Assembly: GCF_019083995.1 (NCBI RefSeq)
Contig: NZ_JAHRCU010000002.1
Location: 186,001-250,000, forward strand
Direction: 5' to 3'
DNA length: 64,000 nt
Source of the DNA: Roseococcus sp. SDR
GTDB taxonomy: Bacteria > Pseudomonadota > Alphaproteobacteria > Acetobacterales > Acetobacteraceae
The number at the start of each line of letters is the position of its first letter. The stretch's first letter is position 1. The notes below the pieces were generated by a model, which saw only the letters and a list, made by a program, of their open reading frames with translations, had not been told where the DNA came from and ran no database searches. Positions 11,344-34,269 of this stretch are shown here, piece by piece. Both the position numbers and the translations under genes were made by a program.

Positions 11344-12420
11344 TCACTCCTGGCCCGATACCGGCTCCGCCTTCTCCGCCGCCCGCCGGCGCTGCTTGGC
11401 CGTGGCCTCGGGGCGGGGTCGTGCGGCCCGCGCCGTGGGCGCGACCAATTGCGGCAGCAGGTCGATCAGATGTTCGAGGAGGGCCCGATCACCGAGATCC
11501 TGGGGCGCTGCATCGCCGACGGCGGGCAACGGATCGCGGAACAGCACGCCATCGGGGTCCTTCAGGAACTCGCGTGCAACGCGCGCGTCACCTTCCGCGT
11601 ATTGCGCCAGCAATTCCGCCGCCCCTTCGCTCGAGAGGTATCGGAGCGGCGCGAAGAGCGGGCGTGCAGGGCTGCACCCCATGATCCGCCGGCGCAGCCG
11701 GTTCGCCAGTTCCGGATCGGCGATGCGCTGGTTGATGGCACGCAACAGTTCGACGGTCGTCATGTCGGGCGCGGTGTTGACCGCGCGGTTCTCCGGTGGA
11801 ACCGGAACCGCCGCCTCCTCGCCGATCGCCTTGAGGAAATCGGCGCGGATGTCGCTTTCGAGTCTGCCCTTCTCATACACGCGAACAACCACGCTGGCCC
11901 CGGCGGAAGCCCAGGATTGCAGGACGCCGTTGAAGTCAAATCCGGCATTGCGCCCCGCCTTCGCGCGCTCCAGCCAGGTGGGAAACTCCACCGTGGCACC
12001 GCCCTTGATCGCCTGGACATAGAGCGATTGCGCCAGCAGGTCCTGCCGGCGCAGATATGCGACGATGCGCGGCGTCCAACCGGGGAAGGCATCCAGCAGC
12101 CGCCGAACCTGCCGCGGGGGAATGGCGCCCCAGAGATACTCGGTCGACAGCACCAACACGCGAGGGCGCCTCGCCTCGATCTCCCGCCCGATGCCGTGAA
12201 CAGCCTCGGACAGGGCAGTGTCGCGCGACACGTCACCCAGTCGCCCAGCGCGGCCCGGAAAGATCGCGGCGCCGATGACGTGATGCGCCTTGCCCATCGT
12301 TCCGGCGGAGGGGTAGAGGATGCCGCGGGCGGCCAGGGCCTCGCGGTTCTCCGCGAGAAAGTGCTGGATGGCCGTCGTGCCGGTCTTGGGCGACCCGATG
12401 TGGATGTAAAGGTCGGGCAT
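11344..12420 (-). CDS. Sulfotransferase-like P-loop protein (first of three)
   Basis: A 358-residue cytoplasmic protein. The first strand and loop, YIHIGSPKTGTTAIQHFL, form the phosphosulfate-binding P-loop of PAPS-dependent sulfotransferases. Farther on, VLVLSTEYLW and IVAYLRRQDLLAQSLYVQ match the strand and Arg-rich segment that bind the 3'-phosphate of PAPS. The C-terminal 30 residues are basic and Ala-rich, a low-complexity tail. The reaction would move sulfate from PAPS to a hydroxyl of a sugar or protein. It lies 3 nt after the two-methyltransferase gene on the same strand, at the end of the glycan gene group. PAPS could come from cysD-cysNC encoded 17 kb away. Confidence 0.74.
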   Translation of the reverse strand: MPDLYIHIGSPKTGTTAIQHFLAENREALAARGILYPSAGTMGKAHHVIGAAIFPGRAGRLGDVSRDTALSEAVHGIGREIEARRPRVLVLSTEYLWGAIPPRQVRRLLDAFPGWTPRIVAYLRRQDLLAQSLYVQAIKGGATVEFPTWLERAKAGRNAGFDFNGVLQSWASAGASVVVRVYEKGRLESDIRADFLKAIGEEAAVPVPPENRAVNTAPDMTTVELLRAINQRIADPELANRLRRRIMGCSPARPLFAPLRYLSSEGAAELLAQYAEGDARVAREFLKDPDGVLFRDPLPAVGDAAPQDLGDRALLEHLIDLLPQLVAPTARAARPRPEATAKQRRRAAEKAEPVSGQE

Positions 12421-12423
12421 TCG

Positions 12424-14301
12424 TCAATTCCCCTGCTTCACCGCAGCGAGCCGACCGACGACCGTCACGCTGCTCGTCGTGAGGTCAGCGAGTGTGAGGT
12501 CGGGATTGGCGGCCAGCACCTTGTCGCGCAGGCGCATGACGACAGCCGGATCCTCCGCCTGCGGACGCCACTCCTGGATGCTCATGACGGCCTCCAACTG
12601 CTCGCGGAGCGCGGTCAGGGTCAGCGGCCGCGGCCGCAGGTGGCGAATGTGTCGCCAGTCCAGCAGGGTGGCCTGGGAGGGATCATTGCGGTCGATCTCC
12701 GAGGCACGCTGCGGGCGTCGTCCATGACCGGACCACGCATAGGCATTCTGCCAGCGGACGCAGAGCACGCCGTCCGGGCGCAGAAGGCGCGCCGCCGTAG
12801 CCAGCATCGAATCCAGCGAGATCTCCGGGGAGGGAGCGTCGATGATCGCGAGGTCGAACCGGGTCCCGCGGAGCGCATCGGCATCGCGGCTATAGGTCAA
12901 GAAGGGGATCATGTCCTCGACGTCGCCGAGCCGGATCGCGGACCGATGGCGCAGGCCCGCGATACCGCCGGTATAGGTGCGCTGCGCCGGGTCGTGGCGC
13001 GGGTTGACCGCGGCGTAGCTCCGCGCGCCCAGTGCCCGCAACGCGACGCCGTGCAGCGTCATCGTCCCGGTGAGTTCCACGACGTCACGCCCCAGGGCGA
13101 GATCGGCCACTCCGGCCGCCTGCAGCACGGCGCCCGACCGCACGGCAGCATCGAAGAGCGGAACGAGGCGGGAGATGTCCTGCCGGGTGGCGCGGGCATG
13201 GATCGCGTAGCGCGTTGCCAGGTCACGGCCCGTCTTTGGGAGCCGCAGCGCCTTCGCCAGGCCCGCCAGCGCCTCGCTTGAGAGACCGCGCAGGGTCACG
13301 TTCTCCTGGTTGCCGCCGATGGTGGCGTCCTCTTCCGCCATCACCTCAAGGGCCGCGCGGGATGCCCTGGGCCGGACCCCACCGCGCAGGTAGGCGCCCG
13401 CCATCGTCAGCGCCCGGCCGATCTGGCGATCGCTGTACCGGGCGAGCCGCTCCACCTCGTCCGCGAGGACGCCATTGGCTTCGGCCGCCTGCGCATGGGC
13501 GAGGACGTCTTCGGCCGCATCATCGGCCTGCAGGTTCAGCAGGTCGAGTGCCATGCCGACCGACAGTTCACCGCTGCGGGCGGCAGGGAAGACATCGCAG
13601 GCATGGCGCCAGATGCGCAGGAGTTCCTCGACACCAAGGCTGGAGATGCTGCGCGGGACCGTCTGATCACGCAAATTCACCGGCGCTTCGACGCGGAACA
13701 CGGCGGCCGTGCCGCTCTCCACCAGCCGGACGGGCCGCAGCTCGGGAATCGAGGCCAGGAGCCAGACGAGCTGACGCGACGTGATGTGAAGGAAATCCTG
13801 GAAGACCACGCTGCCCCCCGGCAGGAGCCGCGGGCCGAGGTGCTCGAGGACGCTCCGCAGCATGCTCCAGGATTTCGGGGCATCGACGAAGAGCAGCTCG
13901 ATCTTGGCCGGTGGTTCGAAAACCTTCGGAAGGTCCTGCAGTTCCGCCTGCAGGCACGTCATCCTGGCAGCGTGTTCGCCCATATTGGCCTGGAACATCT
14001 CCAGGAAGCTCGCCCCCTCGGTGAGCGGGACTTCCGGATACCGGGTCATGTAGAGCTTGCTCCAGCGGAAGCGGTCAATGACCGTCAGCCGCCAATCCTC
14101 GCCGGTCTCCTCAAGACCACGGCAGATCTCGATCGTGCCCGAGCCGAGCCAGGAGCCGATCTCGATCACCTCGCCCTCGCCGCGGTACTGCCGGGCCACA
14201 TCCCGATAGAGCGCCTTCTCGTCCAGGCTCAGCATGGAGGGCATGGACGAGTCAGCCTCGAAGTTCGCGGCCTTCGCGCTAAATATTTCGATCTTGGACA
14301 T
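12424..14301 (-). CDS. Protein with two methyltransferase-like domains
   Basis: A 625-residue fusion. The N-terminal half has a class I SAM-dependent methyltransferase fold, with motif I VIEIGSWLGSGT at about residues 45-56, an acidic residue in LTVIDRF, and LLFVDAPKSW and GSVVFQDFLH for later strands. The middle (about 230-400) is helical and unassigned. The C-terminal part (about 410-625) looks like a second, degenerate methyltransferase domain: it lacks a clear glycine-rich motif I but keeps FDLAIIDAPS and LLRPDGVLCVRW. It resembles the separate methyltransferase at 16311-17222 in its LALGA-type stretch, its N-x-YAW-x-GH stretch and its DWRH box. It begins the two-gene unit with the sulfotransferase. 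A role in decorating a glycan or its lipid carrier is inferred from neighbours. Confidence 0.7.
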   Translation of the reverse strand: MSKIEIFSAKAANFEADSSMPSMLSLDEKALYRDVARQYRGEGEVIEIGSWLGSGTIEICRGLEETGEDWRLTVIDRFRWSKLYMTRYPEVPLTEGASFLEMFQANMGEHAARMTCLQAELQDLPKVFEPPAKIELLFVDAPKSWSMLRSVLEHLGPRLLPGGSVVFQDFLHITSRQLVWLLASIPELRPVRLVESGTAAVFRVEAPVNLRDQTVPRSISSLGVEELLRIWRHACDVFPAARSGELSVGMALDLLNLQADDAAEDVLAHAQAAEANGVLADEVERLARYSDRQIGRALTMAGAYLRGGVRPRASRAALEVMAEEDATIGGNQENVTLRGLSSEALAGLAKALRLPKTGRDLATRYAIHARATRQDISRLVPLFDAAVRSGAVLQAAGVADLALGRDVVELTGTMTLHGVALRALGARSYAAVNPRHDPAQRTYTGGIAGLRHRSAIRLGDVEDMIPFLTYSRDADALRGTRFDLAIIDAPSPEISLDSMLATAARLLRPDGVLCVRWQNAYAWSGHGRRPQRASEIDRNDPSQATLLDWRHIRHLRPRPLTLTALREQLEAVMSIQEWRPQAEDPAVVMRLRDKVLAANPDLTLADLTTSSVTVVGRLAAVKQGN

Positions 14302-14427
14302 CGATGCTCCAACATGGACGGAAGGCGGGCTGGAAAGGCCGGTGGGACGGTGGAGACAACCGGCGGCAAGGCGCTTCGCGCCATGTTCGAGTGATACCCG
14401 AGATCACGAGGCGCATCAAAGCTCCGC

Positions 14428-16299
14428 TCACGACGCGCGTCTCTCGATCTTGGCGAGCAGGGCCAGGATCTTCGGATGATCGGGCTTCGCCGTCAGTCCA
14501 GCGCGCAGCACCTTCGCCGCGAGATCCTTGCGGCCGATGCCGATCTCAAGGCGGGCCAGCCCCATCACCGCCTCCACCAGGGACGGCTGCCGCGCGATCA
14601 CGGCCTGGAAGGCGGCCCGCGCTTCCTCGGTCTCGCCCGCCTCGCCCGCGGCCCGCGCCTGCAGCAGCAGAAGGCCCAGTCTGCCGGGCGCCAAGGCCAC
14701 GGCCCGCCGCGCCAGACGGAGCGCATGGGCGGGCTCGCCGGCCGCCAGGGCAGCTCTGGCACGGTCGGTGAGCAGCATCGGATCGGTGATATCCGCCTCT
14801 TGTTCTGCGTCGAGCAGGCGCTCCGCCTCCTCGCGCCGGCCCAGGCTCAGGTAGATCCGGCCAAGCCGGGCCGCGTGGCGCGCGGCGGGCGTGATGTCGA
14901 GCAACGCCTCGAGGGCCGCCGCGGCGCCTGTCAGGTCGCCCTGCGCTTCACGAAGCTGCGCGTTCATCGCATGGATGGCGGCGCCCCGAGGCTCCAGCTC
15001 CAAGGCCTGCCGCACGGCCCCTTCGGCGGTGGCGAGCGCACCCTCCTGCAGGGCACGGGCGGCAAGGGCCAGTTGCATCGCGACGCTGTTCGGCGCGAGG
15101 GCCGCGGCCCGACCTGCATGCTGCAGGGCAGCCGCCCCATCTCCGGCCTGGCCGGCGAGTTCGCTCGCGCGCCAAGGCCAGGTCGGATCGGCCGGCGCAA
15201 GCCGTGCAGCATCCTCGGCGGCGAGGAGCGCTGCACGGGTGTCCCCCGCCTGCTCCGCCGCGGCCAATCGTGCCTCGGCCGCGGGAAGCGGTGGCAGGAT
15301 GGCCGCCAGCGCCAGGAGCGCAGCTCCGTCACGCCGGCGGCGTGCGCGCAGCAGCGCAGTCTCCTCCGCTGCCATGAGCGGCAGGCAAGCGGACGGATCG
15401 AGCTCCACGAGGTCGTAGATCTCATCGCAGATATCGCTGGTGTCGAGGGCGGCGGCAGCCTGTCCATCGGGTGCCAGCACGTAGATCGCTGACCGCTCGC
15501 TCTCCTCATGCATTCCAGCCAGGAGGCTGACCGGCAGGCTGCGCTCCGGCCCCAGGGAAGCGGATTTGGCCCGGAAGCCGCTCCGTCCGACGAAAAGCGC
15601 CTCCGGCGTGACGAGCAGACCGCGCACCCAGCCGAACAAGCTGCGCAGAACGTCGTGCGAGCCGCCCGGCCGGGTGCGCAGGAGCTGACCCGAGCCTGAT
15701 TCGAGCACCAGCACCTCGTCACCCCGCATCACGACACTGTGAGGCGTGTGCAGGCGGTCCACCAGCGCCTGGCCGCTCCGCAAGTCTCGCACCTCGCCGA
15801 AGCGGCGTGAGTCGCCGGGCAATGCCGGTCCGAACATCGCAACCAGGGGCTGACCGTCCCGCATGGCGATCCCGTTCAGGTGCAGCGTGTCGTGCTCGGC
15901 CGGGTCCAGCACATGGGCCGGGGTTTCGGTGCCATCCTGCCGGTTGCGGTGGATGATGCGGTTGGTTCCCGTTGAGACCAGCAGGAGGCCCTGCTCCGCC
16001 GTGCAGATCGAATGCAGCTTGCGCACCTGCGTGAGTTCGACCGCGGCGGCGGTGCCATTCGTCAGGTCGAATGTGGCCAAGGCGGAGGGTGTGCGCTGCA
16101 GGCCCGCATGCAGGCGGCCATTCTCGACGCACAGACCCGTGATCCCCGTGAACCCGAGGCGCCGGTGCAGCCCGCCCAGGTCGACAAACCCCTCAAAGAC
16201 GGGCGCGCCAGCGGACCAAGTGAACATGCCGAGCGAGAAGCGCCCGTCGGCGTGGCCGGTGTTGCAGAAGCTGGCCAGGAACCGCACCGCTCGCTCCAC
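14428..16299 (-). CDS. Beta-propeller plus TPR protein
   Basis: A 623-residue two-part protein. Residues 1 to about 330 have the repeated strand pattern of a propeller and resemble the TIGR03032/DUF4915 family (GFTGITGLCVENGRLHAG, then HLNGIAMRDGQP and LHTPHSVVMRGDEVLVLESG). From about 335 to the end it is Ala-rich helical, with tetratricopeptide-type repeats (WASELAGQAGDGAAALQHAG and EAERLLDAEQEADI are examples). No signal peptide or membrane segment is visible. Start GTG 16299 lies just after the upstream methyltransferase stop and has no obvious ribosome site. Propeller-TPR proteins of this kind occur in glycan clusters as likely scaffolds; no enzymatic motif is seen. Confidence 0.66.
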   Translation of the reverse strand: MERAVRFLASFCNTGHADGRFSLGMFTWSAGAPVFEGFVDLGGLHRRLGFTGITGLCVENGRLHAGLQRTPSALATFDLTNGTAAAVELTQVRKLHSICTAEQGLLLVSTGTNRIIHRNRQDGTETPAHVLDPAEHDTLHLNGIAMRDGQPLVAMFGPALPGDSRRFGEVRDLRSGQALVDRLHTPHSVVMRGDEVLVLESGSGQLLRTRPGGSHDVLRSLFGWVRGLLVTPEALFVGRSGFRAKSASLGPERSLPVSLLAGMHEESERSAIYVLAPDGQAAAALDTSDICDEIYDLVELDPSACLPLMAAEETALLRARRRRDGAALLALAAILPPLPAAEARLAAAEQAGDTRAALLAAEDAARLAPADPTWPWRASELAGQAGDGAAALQHAGRAAALAPNSVAMQLALAARALQEGALATAEGAVRQALELEPRGAAIHAMNAQLREAQGDLTGAAAALEALLDITPAARHAARLGRIYLSLGRREEAERLLDAEQEADITDPMLLTDRARAALAAGEPAHALRLARRAVALAPGRLGLLLLQARAAGEAGETEEARAAFQAVIARQPSLVEAVMGLARLEIGIGRKDLAAKVLRAGLTAKPDHPKILALLAKIERRAS

Positions 16300-16310: not shown

Positions 16311-17222
16311 TCAGTCGAAATCGACGGAGCGTTTCCGCGCGGTCAGGACGACCTGCTTGGTCAGCAACTCCTGGTCGGCATATCCGGCAAGCCGTGCGCG
16401 CACTTCCGGAGTCAGGCGCGGCCGGATCACGCTGCGGTCAGGCACCTCCTCCCACTTGCCGATCTCGAAATGCGCCGAGACCAGTTCGCGCAATTGCGGC
16501 AGGCGCAGCGGCATGACGACAGGCTCGGCCGGCCGCTGGTCGGGCACGACATGGCGCCAATCGGCGAACTTCATGTGGTCCGCGTTCGCAGGATCGAAGG
16601 CGGCCGGGCTGCGCGGCTCCTTCTGGTGACCGCCCCAGGCGTAGTAGTTCTCGTGCAGGATCCAGACCTGCCCGCCCGGCCGCAGGGCCCGGCTGATCTG
16701 GGCCATGGTCGCCGCCGGATTCTCGAGCAGATGGGTGACCGACTGCATGATGACGACGTCCCAGGCCTCACGCGAGTTGACGGCGTTCGCGCGGATGTAG
16801 CTGACGCCCGGCATCATGTGCGCGACATCGGCCAGGGAGAAGGGCAGGTCCACCGTCTTCTTCTGGAGGCGGCTGCGGAATTTCTTGCGCTTCATGTCGA
16901 GCGCCTGGTCCACGCCCGTATAGGTGTTGGCGCCGAGCGCGCGTAAGGCGGGGCCGTACAAGGTGGCGCCGCAGCCGAAGTCGAGCACGTCCTTGCCGTG
17001 GCACAGCGCACGCACCTGCAACGGCATCGCCACATGGCCAAGCGCGATGACCTGCTCGAAGATTCGCGTCAGCGAGGGCACATGGCGCGGCTTCAGGCTG
17101 GCGCCGTGGAAGACGTAGTTGAACAGCAGCGCCGCCGCATCCGCGGGCTGGCGCATGCGCAGCGCAAGAGCCGCGAGATCAGCCGGCGCGATCTGGTTTG
17201 CGCTCTCGGAAGCGTCGCTCAT
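16311..17222 (-). CDS. Class I SAM-dependent methyltransferase
   Basis: A 303-residue cytoplasmic enzyme. Motif I is VLDFGCGATLYGPALRALGA at about residues 80-99, with the acidic ribose ligand in TYTGVDQ, and later strands in WDVVIMQSVTHLL and ALRPGGQVWILHENY. The C-terminal portion contains YAWGGH and FADWRHVVPD, shared in pattern with the C-terminal half of the two-domain protein at 12424-14301. It lies between the glycosyltransferase (6-nt gap) and the propeller-TPR gene (11-nt gap) on the same strand, so all appear co-transcribed. The acceptor is unknown; a sugar O-methyltransferase is the most natural reading in this setting. Confidence 0.76.
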   Translation of the reverse strand: MSDASESANQIAPADLAALALRMRQPADAAALLFNYVFHGASLKPRHVPSLTRIFEQVIALGHVAMPLQVRALCHGKDVLDFGCGATLYGPALRALGANTYTGVDQALDMKRKKFRSRLQKKTVDLPFSLADVAHMMPGVSYIRANAVNSREAWDVVIMQSVTHLLENPAATMAQISRALRPGGQVWILHENYYAWGGHQKEPRSPAAFDPANADHMKFADWRHVVPDQRPAEPVVMPLRLPQLRELVSAHFEIGKWEEVPDRSVIRPRLTPEVRARLAGYADQELLTKQVVLTARKRSVDFD

Positions 17223-17228: not shown

Positions 17229-20200
17229 TCAGCCTATCATGCGGGAGAGAATGCTCTTGTACGCGAGGAGCATTTCCTGGTGCCCGGTGAGCTTCCAGAA
17301 GGCGCGCCGCGCCTGATGCGCCATGGCCTCGCGCCGCGCGTCATCCGTCACGAGTTCGACGAAGCGCCGCTTCCACGTCTGCATGTCGTTGAAGTCGTAA
17401 AGATAGCCGGACTCACCGTCGGTGACCTGCTCGTTCACGCCGAAGACCTTGGTCGAGAGCACGGGCAGCGAGGAATAGAGCGCCTCGACGACGCTGCGCG
17501 GATAGGCCTCGGAGCTGGAGTTCATCAGGAACATGTCGGCGGCGCGGTAATAGGGCGCCACATCCTCCGTCGCGTCGACGACGACCAGCCGCCTGCGCAC
17601 CTCTTCGGGAAGCTGCGTGAATTCGCGCATGAAGTCGTTGAGGCCGCTGCCCTCGACGGCGCCGAGGAAGACGATGGCGCAGGCCTCCCGCACCTCGGCC
17701 GGCAGCTCCGCGAAGGCCTGGGCCAGTTCACGCTGCCCCTTGCGAAGGTTCACCGTGCCGACGCACAGAGCGATCAGCCCCTCGGCCGGGAGATTGAGGC
17801 GGGCGCGCGCCGTCGCCTTGTCCATCTCCGCGACGCCTTCGAAGCGATCACCGGAAATGCCGTTGGGGATCACATGGACCTGCCCGCGCATGGCCTGGTC
17901 GGCCCAGGTGTCGCGGCTTGTCTGGGCGACGAAGACCACATTGGAGGCCTGCGTCAGGCCCCGGATCGCGGCGAGGCGCGCATCGCCCGTGAAGTGCGAG
18001 AAGCGCTCCTCCGCGGTGTAGGATTCCCGGACGATGACCATGCTCGGGATGCCGATGCTGGCCGCGAAATCGGCCATCGGCGCGGACTTCACCGTGTTGC
18101 AGACCAGCGCCTCGATCTCGTGCTTCTTGAGGAAGCTGATGACAGTGTCTCGCATCGCGGCGAAGCGCGTGTTCAGCGACTTCACCATGTGCCGGGCGTA
18201 GGGATCGAAGATCTCGAGCGCGGCGCCGGCCTTGGCGTATTGCTGTGCGAGCGGACCCGGGCCAGGCGCGAAGACGAAGGGCGTGATGCCCTGGCTCGAC
18301 AGGCCGGAGGCGAGCTCGAACAGGCTCCAGGGCGCCCCCTCGCCGAGCGAGAGATTGTGCGAGACGAAACCGACGCGGCGCGGGCGTTCCTTGAACAGGG
18401 CGGGCGCGTAGGTATGGTTCTCGATCAGCGTGGTGTAATTCTGCGTCGTCGCCTCGCGGCCGCAGGTCGCGGCGATGAAGCGCTGCACGCGGCGGACGTA
18501 GAGGTGGCGGAACGGATCGGCCTCGAGCTTCGCCATCGCGCGGTCCAGACCACGTTCGCCCTGGATGTCGGCGACCTCGTGCCCCGTGGCCCGCAATATC
18601 TCGCGGCAAGCCGGCGAGTTCGAGACGAGCGTGGGGATGCCCTGCATCATGGCCGCGATGAAGCGGTTGGGGCTCTTGGCCTGTTCCGCGTCGTCATAGG
18701 CGACGACGCAGAGCGTCGCTTCCGCGAAGCCCGCCTCCATCGCCTCCAGCGACCAGTCCTGGCAGAAGGGCAGGTAGTCCGGATGCGCCTTGAAGAAGCT
18801 GCGGCGGGAGATGACCAGCGGCTCGTAGCCGAAGCGACGGCGCAGCCGGTCCAGCATCCAGCGCGCGCTCTCGAAGTTGCCGCGATCCGGGTTGCCGAAC
18901 CACAGCACAACCTTCTTGCCGTTGAGGCGCGGCGGACGCGCGACGGCGCCGTAGTCCACCGGCTCGGGCACGTAGCGCACGGGGCGGTGCGGTGCGCGGG
19001 AGGCGACCTCCGCCTTCAATTCCCTGCTCGGAACCGTGACGAGGTTCGCGCGCTCGATCAGTTCGGCATAGCGGTCGATCGAAGAGACCGGCGGATCGAG
19101 ATGACGAAAAAGGCGCGGGTTCTCGTAGTACTTGTCGCAGACGTCGTAGATCAGGAACTGATCCGGATTGGCGCGCAGCTTCGCCATCACCACGTCGTCG
19201 CACATCTGGACGACGATGACGATGTCCGCATCCTCGTGGTAGCCCTGCACCACATCGAAGCGGCCGCCCTCAGCCAGAAACTCCGAAGGGTATTTGGCAC
19301 GCAGGCGGGACGAGCCGAACTTCTCCGGCGGTTCCCAGAAAGGCACGAAGGCGACCTTGGGCCGCCGCGCCGTGGCACGCCGCGACTGCGAGAAGAGCGA
19401 GCGGAAGACCTCGCCATACTCGCGCGCCGCCTGGGCGATGTTGTGGTGCCGCTCTGCGAAGGCCCGCGCCTCGGCGCCGATCCGTCGCCGGAAGCGGTCG
19501 TCGCGCTGCAGCCGGGAGATGGTCTCGGCGATCATCATCTCGTCGCGATCGGCGATCAGGATGCTCTTGCCGTTGACCATGAACTCGCTGTGGTAGCCGG
19601 CGTGAGGCGTCGTGATCACGGGGACGCCGAGCGAGATGGCCTCCATGATGACATTGGAGGTGCCCTCCCGACCGGGCGCAACCGGCTGCAGCAGCACATC
19701 GATCTTCGAATAGAAATCCGGGATCATCCGGTCATGCGGGATCTGGTGCGTTCCCTTCGAGGCCAGCAGAAGCTGCACGCCCGCACGCTCCGTCGCGGCC
19801 TTGACGAGGGGATAGCCCTTGATCTCCGCCTCAGCCGAGGATTTCAGGCTGGCCGCGAAGCCAACCGTGAAGGGACGCTCGCCCACCACGCGCTTGGCGG
19901 GTGACCACTCCTCGAGGTCGAGTGCATTCGGAATGAGGTGGACATTTCCATGCGCGCGGCTGACGCGCAGGTAGAGCTCGGCGTTCAGCGCGACGATCGC
20001 GTCGAAGCGCTTGAGGCCCTTGCGCATCGCCTCGACATCATCGCCGAAGAGGCGATCAAGCGGACGCGGGCCGCCGATGCGAAGGACCGAGCGCCGGGCC
20101 TCCGCAGGGTAGCGCTCAGCGACGATTGCATCGAAATAGACCGCGATGGCGGCCGGGTCGCTGCCGGCGATGGAGTGCTCGAAGTTCGGGAGCCGCTCAG

Positions 20201-24958: not shown

Positions 24959-25024
24959 GGTGGGGCGCGCCCTGTGCATTCATGGAGCACGGCGGCGCCT
25001 GGAAACCGTGCTGGAGGTATGCTC

Positions 25025-25726: not shown

Positions 25727-26817
25727 TGGCCGACCATCCCTACGCCTCCATGCCGCCCTATGCCTCCTGGCGGCGCAGCTTCCAGGACATCCCGATGACG
25801 GAGGTGGACCCGGTCGCGAAGTTCCCGATGACCGTGAGCCCAACGGACAAGGTCGCGACGGCCGGCAGCTGCTTCGCCCAGCACATCGCCCGCCGCCTGC
25901 GTGCGAGCGGCTTCACCTATTTCGTGACCGAGCCGGGCCACCCGCTGCTGAGCGAGAAATTGCGGGCCGAGTTCGGCTACGGCGTCTTCTCCGCACGCTT
26001 CGGCAACATCTATACCACGCGCCAGCTGCGCCAGCTCTTCGACCGCTGCTACGGCCGGTTCAGCCCGGTCGAGGACATGTGGCGCAAGGGTGCTCGCTTC
26101 CTCGATCCGTTCCGCCCGACCATCCAGCCCGACGGCTTCGCTTCCGAGGCGGAGTTCCGAGCGGACCGCGCCCAGCACCTCGCCGCCGTGCGCCGCATGT
26201 TCGAGGAGCTCGACATCTTCGTCTTCACCCTTGGCCTGACCGAGGGCTTCGTCAGCCGGGAGGACGGCGCCGCCTTTCCGGTCTGCCCTGGCGTCGCCGG
26301 CGGCACCTTCGATCCGGAGCGCCACATCTTCGTCAATGAGCGCGCTGCCGAGGTGGTGGAGAACATGTCGGTCTTCATCGCCGGCTTGCGGCGCGTGAAT
26401 CCCCGCGCGCGCGTCATCCTCACCGTATCGCCGGTGCCGCTGAAGGCGACGGCGGAGGACCGCCACGTGCTGCAATCCACCGTCTATTCGAAGTCCGTGC
26501 TGCGCGTCGCAGCGCAGGAAATCGCCGACAGCCACGCCGACGTCGCCTATTTCCCCTCCTACGAGATCATCACCGGCGCCTACAACCGCGGCGCCTATTT
26601 CGGCCCCGACCTGCGCGAAGTGGAGGAGGCGGGCGTGGAGCATGTGATGCGGCTCTTCTTCCGCCACGCCACGGCGACGGCGGGCGAGGCACCGCCACCC
26701 GCACCCGCGCCGCCCCGCAAGAAGGACCGCAGCATCGCCCGCGCCAGGGCCGCCACCGCCGTGGTCTGCGACGAGGAGCTGCTCGACATAGAACCGGTCG
26801 GCGGAGCGGAGGACTGA
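25726..26817 (+). CDS. GSCFA-domain protein
   Basis: A 363-residue protein with the family-naming motif in VATAGSCFAQHIARRL at about residues 42-57. A central segment IFVFTLGLTEGFVSREDG and VILTVSPVPLKAT match the strand pattern of this SGNH-related family. The late segment YFPSYEIITGAYNRGAYFGPDLREV with VEHVMRLFF completes the domain. The C-terminal 50 residues are Pro/Ala-rich and then basic, likely disordered. GSCFA proteins occur in glycan and lipopolysaccharide clusters, where they are suspected acyl-modifying enzymes, but no biochemical role is established to my knowledge. The gene is coupled by TGATG overlaps on both sides, to the GNSH gene and the epimerase. Confidence 0.8.
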   Translation: MADHPYASMPPYASWRRSFQDIPMTEVDPVAKFPMTVSPTDKVATAGSCFAQHIARRLRASGFTYFVTEPGHPLLSEKLRAEFGYGVFSARFGNIYTTRQLRQLFDRCYGRFSPVEDMWRKGARFLDPFRPTIQPDGFASEAEFRADRAQHLAAVRRMFEELDIFVFTLGLTEGFVSREDGAAFPVCPGVAGGTFDPERHIFVNERAAEVVENMSVFIAGLRRVNPRARVILTVSPVPLKATAEDRHVLQSTVYSKSVLRVAAQEIADSHADVAYFPSYEIITGAYNRGAYFGPDLREVEEAGVEHVMRLFFRHATATAGEAPPPAPAPPRKKDRSIARARAATAVVCDEELLDIEPVGGAED

Positions 26818-27830
26818 TGGCAGGGGCGATGGAGGGCCAGCGCGTCCTCGTCACGGGCGCGGCCGGCTTCATCGGCTTCCACCTGACGCAGCGCCTCCTC
26901 ACCGAGGGCGCGACCGTGCTCGGCGTGGACAACCTGAACACGTACTACGACCCTGCGCTGAAACAGGCGCGGCTGCGCGCCCTCACCCATCCGCGCTTCA
27001 CCTTCGAAGCGCTCGACATCGCGACGCAAGGCTCGCTCGCCGCGGCGTGGCAGAGCTTCGCGCCGGATTCCGTGGCCCACCTCGCCGCGCAGGCCGGCGT
27101 GCGCTATTCGCTGAAGGAACCGCGGGCCTACGGCCATTCCAACCTCGACGGCTTCCTCGAGGTGCTGGAGGCTTCCCGCGCCGATCCCGCGACGCCGGTG
27201 CTCTATGCCTCCTCCTCCTCGGTCTATGGCGCCAACACCAAGGTGCCTTTCCACGAGACCGATCCGGTGGACCGCCCCGTCTCCCTCTACGCCGCGACCA
27301 AGCGCGCCAATGAGGTGATGGCGCAATCCTACGCCGCGCTCTTCGGCCTGCGCCTGACGGGGCTGCGCTTCTTCACCGTCTACGGGCCCTGGGGCCGGCC
27401 CGACATGGCCTATTGGGGCTTCACCGAGGCCCTGCTCGACGGGCGGGAGATCAACGTCTTCAACCACGGCCGCGTCTGGCGCGACTTCACCTATGTGGAC
27501 GAGGTGACGGAGGCGATCTCGCGCCTGCTGCGCACACCCGGCGGCGGGCCGGACGAACCCGGCCGCGTGGTGCCGGAGGTGCCGCATCGCCTGTTCAACA
27601 TCGGCAACCACACGCCGGTCGCCGTGGGCGATTTCCTCGCCATCCTCGAACGCCTGACCGGCCGAACCGCGCTGCGCCGGGACCTGCCGATGCAGCCTGG
27701 CGATGTCGAGCGCACCTGGGCCGATGTCTCCGCCCTGCAGGCCGCCACCGGCTTCAGCCCGACCACGCCGCTGGATGTCGGGCTCGCGCGCTTCGTGGAG
27801 TGGTACCGCGGCTGGCGCGCGGGCGGCTGA
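26817..27830 (+). CDS. NAD-dependent epimerase, UDP-glucuronate 4-epimerase type
   Basis: A 337-residue extended short-chain dehydrogenase. The N-terminal Rossmann motif is VLVTGAAGFIGFHL. SSSSVYGANTKVPFHE supplies the catalytic Ser/Thr, and SLYAATKRANEVMAQ gives the Tyr-x-x-x-Lys pair. The TVYGPWGRPDMAYWGF block is diagnostic of UDP-glucuronate 4-epimerases (CapI-like), which interconvert UDP-glucuronate and UDP-galacturonate for capsule or lipopolysaccharide. It is coupled to the GSCFA gene. A uronic-acid donor would suit an acidic, possibly sulfated surface polymer. Confidence 0.83.
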   Translation: MAGAMEGQRVLVTGAAGFIGFHLTQRLLTEGATVLGVDNLNTYYDPALKQARLRALTHPRFTFEALDIATQGSLAAAWQSFAPDSVAHLAAQAGVRYSLKEPRAYGHSNLDGFLEVLEASRADPATPVLYASSSSVYGANTKVPFHETDPVDRPVSLYAATKRANEVMAQSYAALFGLRLTGLRFFTVYGPWGRPDMAYWGFTEALLDGREINVFNHGRVWRDFTYVDEVTEAISRLLRTPGGGPDEPGRVVPEVPHRLFNIGNHTPVAVGDFLAILERLTGRTALRRDLPMQPGDVERTWADVSALQAATGFSPTTPLDVGLARFVEWYRGWRAGG

Positions 27831-27848: not shown

Positions 27849-29435
27849 TCAGGGCACCGCGCCCCCCCGCTCCACCGGGCGATGCGTGTCGCGCCGCCGC
27901 TCACGCGGTGTGCGTGCCTCCGGCTCCTCCGGCGGGTCACGGCGCCGGTCGGCATCGATCTCAGGCGCGCCGGGCGGACCGCCGCTGGCCGAAGCCTGTG
28001 CGAGGCGCGGTAAGGCGCCGCCACTCGCGCGCGGGCGCAGGCGGATGCCGGCCGGCACGTGCCGCCCCTCCGCCCGACCGAAACCGCGCACGGTGATGCC
28101 GGTGAGCGAGAGTTGCGAGCCGGCGATGGCGATCACGCCCGAGTGACTGGCATTGCGGATCTCGACGTCGGAGACCTGTCCGGTGACGGCACCGCCCGCC
28201 TCCGGCGGCGCCTCGCGCAGCACCAGCGCCGCCCCCGCCTCGCCGTCGTTCAGGCTCTGCGTGCCTGACATCCGCAAGCGGCGGATCGTGAGGCCTTCGC
28301 AATCGTTCACGATGACCGACCCACCGCCCTGAAGCTCCCAATCCTCAAGCGTGATGTTGCGCGGGCCGGCGCCTCCCGGCTGCCGGCGGACCCAGGCACG
28401 GTTGCGGTAGGTGCCCACGCGCACCGCCTCGCCCTTCAGACCATCCCAGCCGGCATTGCGTCCACGCACGCCGCGGATTGTGATGTCCGAGGGCGGGACG
28501 TGGTCAGGCGTGAAGCGCTCGCCGCTGCGCAGCCAGCTGTCGTAGCTCGGCCAGCCATTGCCCTTGATGTAGAGATAGGCGATCGGCCCGGTGTTCTCGG
28601 CCGTGACGTTGGTCACCTGCCAGCGCGCTCCGCCGCCGAAATCGATGCATTGCGCCTCACGGAAGCCTTCGCGGAACTGCAGGTCGTCAAGCACGACGTC
28701 CCAACACGGGCCGTCGAAGTCCAGCGCCTCGTTGAAACGCTCGAAACGGATGCCGCGCATCGAGACGCCCTGCTCGTAGCGCGTGTAGCTGCCCTGGACG
28801 ATATTGGTGTGCGTGATCCCACGGTCGGTGCGCTCGCGCGCATTCTCGGAGAGCAGGCCGCGCCCCGCCTGCGCGCCCGTGGAGCGGATGCGCATGTCGC
28901 GTCGCGTGAAGCGGTCCACCCCGATGACGCCGCAGGCATATGTGAACGGATACGGGCGGCCGAACTCCTCCCGGAAATCGAAGGTCACGCCGTCCAGCGT
29001 GATGTTGCGCAGCGTACCCGGGCGCTCGTTCAGGGCGGTGCCGAAAAGGAAGTGGCGCTCCAGCCGATGCGCGGCAGGGCGTTCGGGCGGGGCGACGACG
29101 AATTCAGCGGCACCCTGGACCGTCACGTTGCTGCGCAATTGGACGGCCACGCGGATCGGCGCATCCGGCTTGCCGCCCCATTGCCCATGTGTCTCGGCGC
29201 CCACGCGCAGCAGGTAGGTACCCCGCCCGACCACGGGCCGGCCGGTGCGGCTCGCCTCCTCGATGGCGCGGTTCCAGCCGAGCGTGTCGGCGGCCGCGTC
29301 GCCCCCGCGGGCGCCGAAGCGCTGCGGCGTCAGTTCGGCCTGCGTCAGCGCCGGGCTGGGCAGCAGCGACGCGGCCAATGCGCTGGAACCCAGGGCCATG
29401 AAGCGGCGCCGGCTCGGCGGGGCATGCTCAGACAA
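27849..29435 (-). CDS. Tat-exported right-handed beta-helix protein
   Basis: About 528 residues. The N terminus SRRRFMALGSSALAASLLPSPALTQA is a twin-arginine signal with a clear cleavage region. Just after it, FGARGGDAAADTLGWNRAIEEA matches the start of pectate-lyase-type beta-helix domains (the phage-tail-spike / Pectate_lyase_3 pattern). The remainder is a long series of short strands ending in Asn or Gly, as in a parallel beta-helix. The upstream GTG 29453 precedes a GGGAGG site, so TTG 29435, six nt after that site, is the better start. A polysaccharide lyase, hydrolase or epimerase for the glycan made nearby is the natural guess. No catalytic residues can be assigned. It converges on the epimerase gene with an 18-bp gap. 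Confidence 0.7.
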   Translation of the reverse strand: MSEHAPPSRRRFMALGSSALAASLLPSPALTQAELTPQRFGARGGDAAADTLGWNRAIEEASRTGRPVVGRGTYLLRVGAETHGQWGGKPDAPIRVAVQLRSNVTVQGAAEFVVAPPERPAAHRLERHFLFGTALNERPGTLRNITLDGVTFDFREEFGRPYPFTYACGVIGVDRFTRRDMRIRSTGAQAGRGLLSENARERTDRGITHTNIVQGSYTRYEQGVSMRGIRFERFNEALDFDGPCWDVVLDDLQFREGFREAQCIDFGGGARWQVTNVTAENTGPIAYLYIKGNGWPSYDSWLRSGERFTPDHVPPSDITIRGVRGRNAGWDGLKGEAVRVGTYRNRAWVRRQPGGAGPRNITLEDWELQGGGSVIVNDCEGLTIRRLRMSGTQSLNDGEAGAALVLREAPPEAGGAVTGQVSDVEIRNASHSGVIAIAGSQLSLTGITVRGFGRAEGRHVPAGIRLRPRASGGALPRLAQASASGGPPGAPEIDADRRRDPPEEPEARTPRERRRDTHRPVERGGAVP

Positions 29436-29724
29436 CTCGATCCTCCCTCGCACCGCCTACGGGCGATCGAACGTTAGCCGAGCAGGTGCCGGGGGCCAAG
29501 CGCAGCCGACCTCCCGCGCGGCGCGCGTTCTTTGACGCGCGAAGGCTGTTCGGCTATCCCTCGGCGTGCAATTGACGCGCCTTCTGTAGCTGAGGCGACA
29601 CGATGCCTGAGAAGGTACCGGCGACCAAACTGCGGGCGTCAGTTGCGGCCAGCACAGCGCTGAGCGGCATCGGGCCGCCGGCGCAGGCGAGGCCTCTGGG
29701 GTCAGTACAGCCAAGGATATCTTC

Positions 29725-30645
29725 GTGCAGCCGGACCAGCCTCGCTCCCTGAGCCCCCATCTCCGGCGTCTAGAAGCTGAGGGGATCGCCATCCTGCGGG
29801 AGACGGCAGCGAGCTTCCGGAATCCGGTCCTGCTCTATTCGATCGGCAAGGACAGCAGCGTGGTGCTGCACCTGGCCATGAAGGCCTTCGCACCCGGCCG
29901 CATCCCCTTCCCGCTGCTGCACATCGCGACCGGCTGGGATTTCCGCGCAATGCTCGAGTTCCGGGACCGTCGCGCCGCCGAGCTGAATGCGAAGCTGATC
30001 GTACACACCAATCCCGACGGCCTTGCGCGCGGCATCGGGCCCATCACGCATGGCAGCCAGGTGCATATGGATGTGATGGGCACCCAGGCGCTGCGCCAGG
30101 CGCTCGACATGGGCGGCTATGACGCGGCCATCGGTGGCGCCCGGCGGGACGAGGAAAAAGCCCGCGCGAAAGAGCGCGTCTTTTCCCACCGCGCGCCTGG
30201 CTATGTTTGGGAGCCGCGCGGCCAGCGCCCGGAATTGTGGGGCCTGTACAACACACGCATCGCCGCGGGCGAGTCCATGCGCGTCTTCCCGATCTCCAAC
30301 TGGACCGAGTTCGACGTGTGGGACTACATCGCCGCCGAGCAGATCCCCGTGGTCCCGCTCTATTTCGCAGCCAAGCGCCCGATGCTGCGTCGCTCCGGCG
30401 CGCTCATCATGCGCGATGACGAGCGCATGCCGCTGGAGCCGGGCGAGCAAGTCGAGGAGATGTGGGTCCGGTTCCGCACCATGGGCGACTGGCCACTGAC
30501 CGGCGCGCATGAGAGCCGCGCCGAGACGATGGAGCAGGTGCTTGACGAGTTGCGCCTCTCCCGCGTCTCGGAACGGCATGGGCGCCTGATCGACAACGAT
30601 CAGGAGGCCTCGATGGAACGCAAGAAGCGCGAGGGCTATTTCTGA
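29725..30645 (+). CDS. cysD: Sulfate adenylyltransferase subunit 2
   Basis: CysD makes adenosine 5'-phosphosulfate (APS) from ATP and sulfate, with the GTPase CysN supplying energy. The 306-residue protein has the PP-loop pyrophosphatase motif [20 protein letters not shown] near residue 35, and the family blocks [19 protein letters not shown] and [15 protein letters not shown]. The length and C terminus (ERKKREGYF) are standard for CysD. The start is GTG with an AAGGA site 7 nt upstream. The stop overlaps the cysNC start (TGATG). Placed directly beside a region with three sulfotransferases, it probably feeds PAPS to them as well as, or instead of, cysteine synthesis. No cysH, cysI or cysJ is in the window. 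Confidence 0.95.
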
Positions 30646-32504
30646 TGGACGGCACGACGCTCTCGCGAGGCCTGCTGCGCCTGCTGACCTGCGGTTCGGT
30701 CGATGACGGCAAGTCCACGCTGATCGGACGGCTGCTCTATGACAGCCAGATGATCATGGAGGACACGCTCGCCGCGATCACGCGCGACAGCCGCAAGCAC
30801 GGCACGGTCGGCGAGGATGTCGATCTCGCGCTGCTGGTGGATGGGCTCGAGGCGGAGCGCCAGCAGGGCATCACGATCGATGTCGCCTACCGCTTCTTCA
30901 CGACACCCAAGCGCAGCTTCATCGTCGCCGACTGCCCGGGGCACGAGCAGTACACTCGCAACATGGCGACCGGCGCCTCGAACTGCGAGCTCGCGATCAT
31001 CCTGGTGGATGCGCGCAAGGGCCTGCTGACCCAGACGCGGCGCCACTCCTACATCTGCTCCCTGCTCGGCATCCGCCATGTCGTGCTGGCGGTGAACAAG
31101 ATCGACCTGGTGAATTTCGACCAACAGGTCTTCGATCGCATCGTGGGTGAATACGCGACCTTCGCGGCCGGCCTCGGCTTCCACACCATGGTGCCGATCC
31201 CCGTCTCCGGCCGCTTCGGCGACAATGTGAGCGCGCGCTCGGGCAACACGCCCTGGTACCGCGGCGAGACACTGCTCGAGCACCTGGAGAGTGTGAGCGT
31301 CGAGGAGGAACTCACGCAGATCCCCTTCCGTTTCCCGGTGCAGTGGGTCAATCGCCCGAACCAGGATTTCCGGGGCTTCTCCGGCACGGTGGCGAGCGGC
31401 GCTGTCGCGCTCGGCGAAAAGCTCGTCGTCGCGGCCTCGGGCGTGACGAGCCAGGTGACCCGCATCCTCGGTCCGGCCGGCGAGCAGGAACGCGCTACCG
31501 CGGGTGACGCCATCACCATCTGCCTCGCCGATGAGGTGGACGTGGCCCGTGGCGACGTGCTGGCACCCATGGCCGACCGGCCAGCGGTGGCCGACCAGTT
31601 TGCCGCCCATGTGCTCTGGATGGATGAGGAGCCGCTGCTCCCCGGCCGCCAGTACATGATGCGCATCGGAAACCTGTGGACCACAGCGTCGGTCACCACG
31701 CTGAAGCACCGCGTGGACGTCACGACGCTCGATCACCAGTCGGCCACGCGCCTCTCGCTGAACGAGATCGGCTTGTGCAATCTCAGCACGGCGCAGCGCG
31801 TGCCCATGGATCCCTATGCGCAGAACCGGTTGACCGGCGCCTTCATCCTGGTGGACCGCTTCACCAACCGCACCGCCGGCTGCGGCATGATCAACTTCGC
31901 GCTGCACCGCGCGACCAACGTCCATCACGAGCATTTCCTGGTGGACAAGGCGGCGCGCGCGGCGGCCCTCGGCCAGAAGCCGATGGTGCTGTGGTTCACC
32001 GGCCTCTCGGGCTCGGGCAAGTCCACGGTGGCGAAGCTGGTGGAGCAGGCGCTGCATCGCGCCGGCCGCCACACCTATTCGCTCGACGGAGACAACCTGC
32101 GCCACGGCCTGAACAGGGACCTGGGCTTCACCGACCAGGACCGCGTCGAGAACATCCGCCGCGTCGGCGAGGTGGCGAAGCTGATGGTGGATGCGGGGCT
32201 TATCGTCCTCGCCTCCTTCATCTCGCCCTTCCGGGCCGAGCGGCAGATGGTGCGGGAGATGCTGGGCGAAGGTGAGTTCCTGGAGGTCTTCGTGGACACG
32301 CCGATCGAGGTCTGCATGGAGCGCGACGTGAAGGGGCTCTACGCCAAGGCCAAGCGTGGCGAGATCGCGAATTTTACCGGCGTCACCAGCCCTTATGAGC
32401 CGCCCGAGGCGGCGGATGTCGTGCTGGATGGCAGCGGCCCGTCGGCCGAAGCTCTGGCGCAGCAGGTGCTGGAATTGATCGAACGACGGATGTCGTCCAC
32501 CTGA
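30645..32504 (+). CDS. cysNC: Sulfate adenylyltransferase subunit 1 / APS kinase fusion
   Basis: A bifunctional 619-residue enzyme. The CysN part (about 1-435) is an EF-Tu-like GTPase with P-loop [16 protein letters not shown] and the NKID nucleotide-specificity box, which drives APS formation with CysD. The CysC part (about 440-619) is APS kinase, with its own P-loop GLSGSGKST at about residue 453, [16 protein letters not shown] and the [10 protein letters not shown] block. It converts APS to PAPS, the donor for sulfotransferases. A fused CysN-CysC is common in Alphaproteobacteria that make sulfated molecules. It is coupled to cysD by overlap and lies 16 nt before the transporter gene. Confidence 0.95.
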
Positions 32505-32520
32505 CCCCGCGAGGAACGCC

Positions 32521-34269
32521 GTGACAGGCATGGGGATCGACCTGATCCTGGTGGGCGTGCTGCTGGTGGCGCTCATCAGCGGCCGGGTACCCATGGCCGG
32601 CGCTTTCCTGGCCTTCATCCTGGCCGTACTGCTGCTGGAGCGTGTGCCCAGCCGCACGGTGCTGGAGTCCCTCGGCGAACCCACCCTGGTCGCGGTGCTG
32701 TGCCTCGTCGTGTTCTCAAGCGTGCTGGGCCGGCTCACCTGGCTGCGCCGGCTGCTGTTCAGCCGGAAGCCGGCGTCAGAGGGCGCCATCCGCCGACGCT
32801 TCCTCGGGATGGCCACGCTCGTCTCCGCCGTCATGCCGAATACAGCGGTGGTGGGCGCGCTGATGGGACCTGCCGCGCGCAACCCGCGCATCGCACCGCG
32901 ACAATTGCTCCTGCCGCTCTCCTACGTCGCCCTCGCTGGGGGCATGATCACGCATTTCGGCACCTCGGCCAATCTGATGACCGTGGGCCAGGCGGCCCGC
33001 GCTGGGGTCGAGATCGGCTTCATGGATTTCGTGCTGGCAGGCTCGGTCACGGCCTTCGCCGTCTATCTGGCGGTGCTGGTGGCGGCACCGCGCCTGATGC
33101 GCGCCCCCAAGGGGAACGAGGCCGCCCGCCTGCCCGAGCTGTTCCATGTCGAAGCGCGCGTGATCGATGCCTCGCCGCTGGTGGGCCGATCGCTTGCCGA
33201 AAACCACCTGCGCAGCCTCGGCCATTTCTATGTCGCGGAACTGATCCGCGGCGACGCGCTGCTCTCGCCGGTCAGGCCGGACGAAATCCTGCAGTCGGGC
33301 GACGTGCTGATCTTTGTGGGTGATGTGCGCTTCCTCGACGAGCTCATGGCGATCCCGGGCCTGGGCGTGATGGAGGAGGTGCGGCAACGATCCGGCCTGC
33401 AGGTGCACCACGCGGTGGTGGCACAGGATTCCGCACTGGTCGGGCTGACACTGAAAAGCAGCAATTTCCGCGCGGCGTTCAGCGCCTCGGTCTTCGCCAT
33501 CCGCCGCGGCGATGAGCGCCTCTCGGGCAAGCTCGGCGAGGTCGAGCTGAAGGCGGGTGATCTGCTGGCCATCGCCGGTGGCAGTGATTTCTTCGCGCAC
33601 CCGGAGGTGCAGTCCAACTTCCACCTGATCGCGCGCGACGGCACGCCCACGACGGCGCTGTCACCGCGAGAGGCGATCATCGCCACCGTCATGTTCGGCC
33701 TCTTCGTGGTGCTCGCCATCTTCGAGCTCACGGAGTTCGCGCTGCTCACCCTGCTGCTGGTCGGCGGCGCCATGGCCTTCGGGTTGCTGAACGGGCGCGA
33801 CTTCCGCGCGCTCTTTCCGTTCGACCTCATGATGGCGCTATGGGGCTCGCTGGTCCTGGCCAGATTGGTGACGCAGGCAGGGCTGGACGGGGTCGTGGCA
33901 GGGATGGTGGTCGATGTCTTCGGCGTGGCTGGCAATCTGGCCACTCTGGCGGTGATCTTCGTTCTCGCCTGGCTCCTGACCGAACTTCTCTCCAACGTGG
34001 CGGCGGCGGTGACAGCGCTGCCCATCGCGCTGCAATTCGCGTCGCTGACCGGCCTGCCGCCCGAGGCCGCAGCGGTGATGGCCGCATTCGGTGCCTCCGC
34101 CTCCTTCCTGGTGCCTTATGGCTACCAGACGCACCTGATGGTGATGTCGCCCGGGAATTACCGCTTCAGCGATTTCCTGAAGCTCGGCTCCGTTGTCCTG
34201 GTCGTCTATGGGTTGGCCAGCGTCGTCTCGCTCTGGGTCCTGAGCGGTCCCCTGCACTGGTGGGGTTGA
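32521..34269 (+). CDS. SLC13/DASS-type transporter with two RCK_C (TrkA-C) domains, likely sulfate importer
   Basis: A 582-residue inner-membrane transporter. Hydrophobic helices occupy residues 1-200 and 380-582. Between them lie two regulatory TrkA-C domains: one around ARVIDASPLVGRSLAE and GDVLIFVGD, and one around GLTLKSSNFRAAFSASVFAI and GDLLAIAGG. The motif NTAVVGALMGPAARNPRI and the final TLVVM-type helices fit the DASS fold. This architecture is known from SLC13-like sulfate permeases adjacent to cysDNC. The start is GTG 32521, 16 nt after cysNC, so it forms part of the sulfate-activation operon and probably supplies sulfate. Another divalent anion as substrate cannot be excluded. Confidence 0.86.
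   Translation: MTGMGIDLILVGVLLVALISGRVPMAGAFLAFILAVLLLERVPSRTVLESLGEPTLVAVLCLVVFSSVLGRLTWLRRLLFSRKPASEGAIRRRFLGMATLVSAVMPNTAVVGALMGPAARNPRIAPRQLLLPLSYVALAGGMITHFGTSANLMTVGQAARAGVEIGFMDFVLAGSVTAFAVYLAVLVAAPRLMRAPKGNEAARLPELFHVEARVIDASPLVGRSLAENHLRSLGHFYVAELIRGDALLSPVRPDEILQSGDVLIFVGDVRFLDELMAIPGLGVMEEVRQRSGLQVHHAVVAQDSALVGLTLKSSNFRAAFSASVFAIRRGDERLSGKLGEVELKAGDLLAIAGGSDFFAHPEVQSNFHLIARDGTPTTALSPREAIIATVMFGLFVVLAIFELTEFALLTLLLVGGAMAFGLLNGRDFRALFPFDLMMALWGSLVLARLVTQAGLDGVVAGMVVDVFGVAGNLATLAVIFVLAWLLTELLSNVAAAVTALPIALQFASLTGLPPEAAAVMAAFGASASFLVPYGYQTHLMVMSPGNYRFSDFLKLGSVVLVVYGLASVVSLWVLSGPLHWWG

Follow-up and report, generated by a model that had tools for sequence, protein, structure and literature searches.

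Introduction

Capsule loci that combine genes for the synthesis of 3′-phosphoadenosine-5′-phosphosulfate (PAPS) with sulfotransferase genes are a kind of gene cluster already known from Vibrio and Cobetia. In Cobetia marina KMM 1449 the capsule locus contains cysN/C, cysD, cysQ, a sulfate permease gene and sulfotransferase and glycosyltransferase genes, and its sulfated product has been solved (PMC11766843; here and below, statements on articles with PMC numbers refer to the accessible parts of their texts). The polysaccharide locus of Vibrio sp. KMM 8419 holds cysD/N/C together with three sulfotransferases (PMC11641403), and in Escherichia coli K4 the sulfation of chondroitin was seen only once cysH had been repressed or deleted (PMC7925653). 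Here we analyze a block of sulfate activation, sulfotransferase-like and glycan-type genes at positions 11344-34269 of a stretch of 64,000 nucleotides, hereafter the window, from contig NZ_JAHRCU010000002.1 (positions 186,001 to 250,000) of Roseococcus sp. SDR, a member of the Acetobacteraceae whose genome (GCF_019083995.1; 5.0 Mb, 62 contigs) is 99.5% complete. Genomes, contigs and loci are designated, where necessary, by G, C and L numbers, G000 being the genome of Roseococcus sp. SDR.

As in C. marina KMM 1449, a cysN/C fusion, cysD and a permease gene stand in one operon, alongside sulfotransferase and glycosyltransferase genes (PMC11766843). Whereas the Cobetia locus itself includes the kps export genes, kpsSC and cysQ, in Roseococcus export genes and cysQ are located elsewhere and KpsC/KpsS were not found; moreover, the permease is of the SLC13 type, and the genome search detected no PAPS reductase. 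The likeness to Vibrio sp. KMM 8419 lies in the presence of PAPS synthesis genes and three sulfotransferase-like genes in one polysaccharide locus, the combination used as a criterion in that work, but the cysC/N/D genes of the Vibrio locus are second copies, whereas the CysD of the window is the only one found in its genome (PMC11641403). In cysH-deleted E. coli, PAPS is left for sulfotransferases (PMC7925653); that strain is a laboratory construct, whereas a comparable gene state occurs naturally here. The unusual part is that the reductive branch appears to be absent, in this genome and in several relatives, around a kept activation cassette. A literature search with subscription journals largely outside its scope gave, among the matches listed, no report of a sulfated product in Roseococcus, nor of a sulfated polysaccharide in Roseomonas.

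Sulfate Activation Without a Detected PAPS Reductase

We consider it probable that the PAPS made by the block serves transfer by three sulfotransferase candidates, ST1, ST2 and ST3, to a surface glycan, and not the synthesis of cysteine; the bacterium, in other words, is likely to use sulfate as a decoration of its surface. Sulfate would enter through an SLC13/DASS-type (CitMHS) permease with TrkA_C domains, for which it is the presumed substrate (32530-34269, plus strand; PF03600, E 4.5e-33). It would be turned into PAPS, as profile matches indicate, by CysD, the ATP sulfurylase small subunit (29725-30645, plus strand; TIGR02039, 465 bits, the CysD profiles giving 465-479 bits), and by CysNC, the ATP sulfurylase GTPase subunit fused to adenosine-5′-phosphosulfate (APS) kinase (30645-32504, plus strand; NF004035, 992 bits; apsK domain, 249 bits), in which G-box and Walker motifs are both present. 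ST1, ST2 and ST3 would then pass its sulfuryl group on to a glycan of the cell surface, presumably made by the neighboring glycosyltransferase, methyltransferase and uridine diphosphate (UDP)-sugar epimerase genes, the resulting 3′-phosphoadenosine-5′-phosphate would be cleared by a CysQ encoded elsewhere, and the glycan would exit through either of two candidate systems, an ATP-binding cassette (ABC)/KpsE-type one on contig C9 or a Wzx/Wzy one on contig C18. The genes cysD, cysNC and SLC13 form a tight operon, in which cysD and cysNC share one base and 25 bases precede the permease gene.

A search of the genome with PF01507 detected a single protein, the CysD of the window, and thus no PAPS reductase (CysH), although the same search scores the CysH of the genus at about 120 bits in three other genomes (G155, G159 and G167). 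Since no PAPS reductase was found, PAPS made in the window would not be on its way to cysteine, and an assignment of cysDNC to the first steps of cysteine synthesis was rejected on the same ground. The initial annotation had reported that cysH, cysI and cysJ are missing and had suggested that PAPS is meant for transfer, not reduction. The absence holds for the window, and no cysH was detected in the rest of the genome either, but sulfite reductase CysI is encoded on contig C16 (NF010029, 601 bits) and NirA with an adjoining CysJ-type flavoprotein on contig C2; a siroheme-synthase gene is also present. The suggestion itself gains support from the single PF01507 protein and from relatives with cysDNC in which neither CysH nor CysI was found.

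These relatives were found by searching one set of 60 genomes both with PF01507 and with the CysI protein, the genus (Roseococcus/Rubritepida) being represented by 21. CysH, CysD and CysI occur together in three of the 21 (G155, G159 and G167); CysD is present and CysH was not found in 11, including Roseococcus sp. SDR; and seven have no PF01507 match, with CysI present (G150, G151, G156, G158, G163, G164 and G166). Five of the 11 genomes with CysD and without CysH carry a CysI orthologue (G000, G153, G154, G161 and G162), and five gave no match in the CysI search (G044, G124, G152, G157 and G160). In G165 the search returned only a 36% match of the NirA type, so that this genome is counted among those without a CysI orthologue, six of the 11 in total. 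Four of these six are at least 99% complete (G044, G124, G152 and G157), G152 being a single contig, and completeness is lower in G160 (74%), in G165 (91%) and in several of the seven genomes without a PF01507 match. With no PAPS reductase detected in the Roseococcus sp. SDR genome and no CysI orthologue in six of the 11, a link of cysDNC to cysteine synthesis, one of the objections foreseen in the initial annotation, was not found. All seven genomes of the genus without a PF01507 match have CysI, and CysI is thus independent of sulfate activation here. Three of them (G156, G163 and G158; loci L210, L212 and L213) are nearly complete, with CysI and no PF01507 match, and apparently possess sulfite reductase without sulfate activation.

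A second, weak PF01507 hit in G157 (Rubritepida flocculans) was considered as a CysH and rejected, as it is DndC (351 bits); the weak second hit in G165 is, by eye, a close copy of the same gene. In R. flocculans (L239:4822-8255) the DndC gene is followed by one for an ATPase, DndD-like by eye, and a similar pair is seen in L240.

The three genomes with CysH encode it as a CysH-CysD fusion of 516, 509 and 496 amino acids in G155, G159 and G167, respectively, of which CysD is the C-terminal half; the CysH half of the G159 fusion scores 294 bits with NF002537. The fusion genes (L053:8953-10482, L052:9161-10711 and L054:9377-10867) adjoin divergent CysNC genes. In a tree of CysD the three fusions occupy a very long, fully supported branch far from the CysD of the window, which groups with those of G161, R. 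thiosulfatophilus, R. suduntuyensis and G152 (support 100/99). Because the fusion CysD forms a separate and distant clade, the window type is not the reductive type of the genus. The CysD proteins of G154 and G162 fall on other branches, and the history of the cassette is therefore mixed. Ten loci of the Falsiroseomonas/Roseomonas type contain an orphan CysD of the window kind, in mid-locus (near 2449 in L087); its surroundings are conserved, and these loci gave no sign of CysNC.

Three Candidate Sulfotransferases

PAPS-dependent sulfotransferases carry a 5′ P-loop of the KxGTT type and a 3′ R-x7-S motif. In each of the three candidates a KxGTT-type P-loop lies near the N-terminus and is followed, 76 to 113 residues downstream, by R-x7-S. 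Among 442 proteins of 250-450 amino acids from the cysD loci and the window, seven contain both motifs, three of them being ST1, ST2 and ST3; in the control set from CysI loci this is the case for one of 111 proteins, whose start sequence is not sulfotransferase-like. ST2 (22894-23805, plus strand; KGGTT and R97-x7-S) is the only one above a Pfam cut-off, and narrowly so (Sulfotransfer_1, PF00685, 22.8 against 22 bits).

ST3 (24011-24958, plus strand), which has a CPCGE motif, matches Sulfotransfer_3 below threshold (E 0.037); two of its distant relatives match this family (E 2e-11 and 9.5e-14) and a third (L145) does not. Against the PDB, a profile of three ST3 sequences, including the two Sulfotransfer_3 relatives, detects 4gox (E 6e-9) and 4gbm, the CurM sulfotransferase (E 4e-6). 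For ST1 (11344-12420, minus strand; HIGSPKTGTT and LRRQDLLAQS) the Pfam scan gave no sulfotransferase match of its own, and among six of its relatives one has a sub-threshold match to Sulfotransfer_1 and five have none. A profile of eight ST1 family members has 3rnl, annotated as 'Sulfotransferase', as its sole significant PDB match (E 1.4e-4, the next being 0.17), and R124 and S132 are invariant across the eight aligned members. PDB sequence searches with the single ST1, ST2 and ST3 sequences gave nothing significant. Motifs and profiles together indicate that ST1, ST2 and ST3 are likely members of the PAPS-dependent sulfotransferase family. The three P-loop sulfotransferase-like genes named at the outset are thus borne out, ST2 by Pfam and the others through family profiles, and a lack of PAPS binding features in the candidates, the other foreseen objection, was not observed. 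Elsewhere in the genome there are two more Sulfotransfer_1 matches, one over and one under the cut-off (L001, G000:C35:27829, and L002, G000:C2:291080).

Gene Neighborhoods of cysDNC and CysI

Pfam families were tallied among 97 neighbors of cysDNC in ten genomes of the genus and among 127 neighbors in 17 CysI loci (an eighteenth, L222, was excluded for want of an anchor). The reach differs, with seven genes per side for cysDNC and four for CysI, and as the 25 commonest families are listed for each tally, a family with only one or two members may escape notice. Near cysDNC there are eight epimerases, four UDP-sugar dehydrogenases, four SIS and three CitMHS proteins, three cytidylyltransferases (KdsB type), two proteins similar to 3-deoxy-D-arabino-heptulosonate-7-phosphate synthetase (KdsA type), three GT2 and two GT61 glycosyltransferases. 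The CysI loci have 14 tetrapyrrole methylases, 13 AhpC and eight NAD_binding_7 (siroheme type) proteins, and their 25 commonest families, out of 108, include neither epimerases nor UDP-sugar dehydrogenases. With our own gene models, glycan genes were recognized at 5/10 cysDNC loci of the genus, 9/27 other loci, 0/18 CysI, 0/3 CysH-CysD and 0/10 orphan-CysD loci, a count that covers 43 of 80 relative loci (the other 37 being distant, short or duplicate), 7 and 17 further loci, and L010. The contrast in this count is circular because the cysDNC loci were the source of the models; the Pfam tallies are the independent test.

In five of the ten relatives cysDNC adjoins genes for UDP-glucose dehydrogenase, epimerase, 3-deoxy-D-manno-octulosonic acid (KDO) synthesis or sulfotransferase, sulfotransferase-type genes being found within three cysDNC neighborhoods (L064, L065 and L082). 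The row in R. thiosulfatophilus (L064) reads UDP-glucose dehydrogenase, epimerase, cysD, cysNC, SLC13, two others, glycosyltransferase and an ST1-like gene, and that in Roseococcus sp. SKW89 (L065) reads sulfotransferase-type gene, UDP-glucose dehydrogenase, epimerase, cysD, cysNC and SLC13. In R. flocculans a contig of 6.7 kb carries cysD-cysNC-SLC13, and a second one has, close to its start, a related sulfotransferase-type gene, a dehydrogenase and an epimerase. SLC13 copies that are 79-83% identical directly follow cysNC in three genomes of the genus. Window glycan genes beside the cysDNC of relatives are, among the matches listed, the epimerase (55-57% identical to those adjoining cysD in four genomes of the genus), an ST1-like gene (31%) and a gene similar to that for the hydrolase-like protein with tetratricopeptide repeats (TPR; 35%). 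This pattern suggests that the activation cassette is shared and that the glycan genes have been exchanged. Exchange of this kind resembles that of capsule and O-antigen loci. As to the co-occurrence in relatives for which the initial annotation had asked, five of ten cysDNC loci have glycan-type genes, mostly other ones than the window, and four have no recognized ones.

Points Against the Proposal and Alternative Explanations

The observations in this paragraph weigh against the use of PAPS for a surface glycan, as do the CysI of the genome, the loss of weak matches in the genome search and the poor structure prediction of ST1, described below. The 25 commonest of the 100 Pfam families of cysDNC neighbors include no sulfotransferase family, and three glycosyltransferases (Glyco_tranf_2_3) occur among the neighbors of CysI. 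The nearest CysD, that of G161 (94%), belongs to a cysDNC locus without SLC13 or recognized glycan genes, as do those of G153, G154 and G162, so that this holds for four of the ten genus loci besides the window; in a fifth, the 6.7-kb contig of G157, SLC13 alone stands beside cysDNC. ST2 was found in one of 150 genomes of the family, its own, two others of the 150 belonging to the genus. ST3 was found in four of 289 genomes of the class including its own (3/288 others, all distant) and ST1 in 14 of 289 including its own (13/288 others, at low identity). These distributions do not appear to support the cluster as a conserved partner of cysDNC. A genome search for the KDO transferases KpsC/KpsS (PF05159) gave no match, the matching ones among 14 control genomes being those of E. 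coli and B. subtilis, and a canonical KDO-linked group 2 capsule was rejected for this reason. CysQ was rejected as a discriminating marker, since 60 of 60 genomes match it, 32 of them over the cut-off.

PAPS might instead be used to sulfate a lipid, a carotenoid, an exported protein or a small molecule, the glycan genes being unrelated or only partly related neighbors. Sequence does not reveal what a sulfotransferase acts on, sulfated carotenoids do occur in Erythrobacter (PMC6627997), and the best solved relatives of ST3 are sulfotransferases of polyketide pathways. We nevertheless regard this explanation as unlikely, given that three sulfotransferase-type genes share one block with glycan genes, that cysDNC of relatives adjoins genes for UDP-sugar dehydrogenase, epimerase and KDO synthesis, and that the genes of the block searched by profile include no carotenoid or lipid gene.

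It is similarly improbable, in our estimate, that cysDNC feeds cysteine synthesis by way of an APS/PAPS reductase that escaped detection or is non-homologous and acts with the CysI of contig C16, with the glycan neighbors being accidental. Sulfite reduction remains, because the genome has CysI as well as a siroheme-synthase gene; a CysI orthologue accompanies CysD in five of the 11 genomes without CysH; four of ten loci have no recognized glycan genes or SLC13 beside cysDNC; and the genome profile search loses weak matches, the PF00685 run having missed ST2 itself. However, no second PF01507 protein turned up in a search that detects the CysH of three members of the genus, six of the 11 genomes lack a CysI orthologue as well, and the presence of CysI in all seven genomes without a PF01507 match makes it independent of sulfate activation.

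That ST1, ST2 and ST3 are kinase-like or degenerate P-loop proteins that transfer no sulfate, and the glycan unsulfated, is very doubtful: ST2 alone passes a Pfam cut-off, and barely, and the predicted structure of ST1 is poor (pLDDT, the predicted local distance difference test score, of 53), with no Foldseek match at E <= 0.001 and, in a further fold comparison, heparan sulfate sulfotransferases tying with adenylate kinases, but P-loop and R-x7-S motifs occur in all three, R124 and S132 do not vary in the ST1 family, and the best PDB sequence matches of the ST1 and ST3 family profiles are sulfotransferases.

Other Genes of the Block and Export

The block consists of a minus-strand left arm, a plus-strand right arm, a minus-strand gene of secreted type and the cysD-cysNC-SLC13 operon. 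Protein families were checked with Pfam and NCBIfam profiles. The left arm continues from ST1 with a Methyltransf_24-domain protein of 625 amino acids (12424-14301; PF13578, E 6.8e-16), a protein with a DUF4915/TIGR03032 domain and TPR repeats (14428-16299; PF16261, E 1.7e-16, and TPR_19; TIGR03032 below cut-off, E 2.4e-13), an S-adenosyl-L-methionine-dependent methyltransferase (16311-17222; PF13489, E 2.5e-11), a multi-module glycosyltransferase of 1105 amino acids (17229-20546; PF00534, E 2.8e-39, and PF13524, E 1.6e-12) and a protein with TPR repeats and an alpha/beta-hydrolase-like domain (20636-22165; TPR_19, E 8e-16; Hydrolase_4 weak and below cut-off, E 0.005), all on the minus strand. 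The right arm, on the plus strand, is headed by an HU/IHF-like DNA-binding protein (22582-22872) and contains, after ST2 and ST3, a candidate SGNH-like (GNSH) protein (25019-25726), a GSCFA family protein (25726-26817; PF08885, E 7.4e-52, 177 bits) and a short-chain dehydrogenase/reductase epimerase resembling UDP-glucuronate 4-epimerase (26829-27830; PF01370, E 3.6e-55), whose substrate is presumed. The secreted-type protein, a putative beta-helix, is encoded at 27849-29399 on the minus strand.

Each gene named in the initial annotation corresponds to an open frame located at, or close to, the positions given there, and profile matches confirm the methyltransferases, GSCFA, the UDP-glucuronate-epimerase-like protein, cysD, cysNC and SLC13. 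The proposed three modules of the glycosyltransferase are confirmed at both ends by GT4-type matches, the middle one having no separate match, and the SGNH-like and beta-helix names, read from the sequence itself, belong to open frames for which Pfam gave no significant match.

The HU/IHF-like gene is far under the IHF-alpha cut-off (57 against 111 bits), a cut-off that another gene at 2606-2917 passes. The G+C content is about 64% across 20.6-25 kb and 70% in both flanks, a drop that hints at a foreign origin of the ST2/ST3 part. Viral contigs searched for relatives of ST3 contained 73 stretches that fit a pattern, none of which was confirmed, and plasmid records gave no match for ST2 and only partial matches for the glycosyltransferase (seven records) and the Methyltransf_24 protein (four records). 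A search with the sulfotransferase-type gene of L082 gave no match in the Roseococcus sp. SDR genome and matches in four of 60 genomes, one match being very weak. Upstream of the block, Pfam identifies an MBOAT acyltransferase and a GDSL protein (4026-6719) and a polysaccharide deacetylase (8616-9266), which may add acetyl changes to the glycan. An Rfam scan of 9000-36000 gave 0 matches near the operons.

The profile searches of genes in the block revealed no exporter. As had been anticipated, export genes lie elsewhere: a capsule-type set with KpsE-type, ABC-2, ABC and Poly_export genes on contig C9, and Wzx and Wzy with a set of sugar transferases on contig C18. CysQ is encoded, with a score over the cut-off, at 132.5 kb of contig C2.

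Implications for Sulfur Metabolism in the Genus

For Roseococcus/Rubritepida as a whole, the evidence is evenly balanced for and against a broader proposal, in which most members would lack PAPS reductase and several of them sulfite reductase too, sulfate would no longer be a sulfur nutrient but only a building block of the cell surface, the cysDNC-SLC13 cassette would serve exchangeable modules and cysteine sulfur would come from reduced or organic sulfur. In a study of aerobic phototrophs living with Microcystis, more than 98% of cysJI came from Microcystis and sulfur oxidation from the associated bacteria (PMC11089705); this study, which says nothing on cysDNC, fits bacteria that do not reduce sulfate.

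If this proposal is true, such bacteria would not grow on sulfate as sole sulfur source, yet would consume sulfate for their surface coat. The presence of cysD, cysN and cysC should accordingly not be taken as a sign of cysteine synthesis. Members of the genus would be natural hosts of PAPS-for-transfer, in the gene state that has been engineered in E. coli (PMC7925653).

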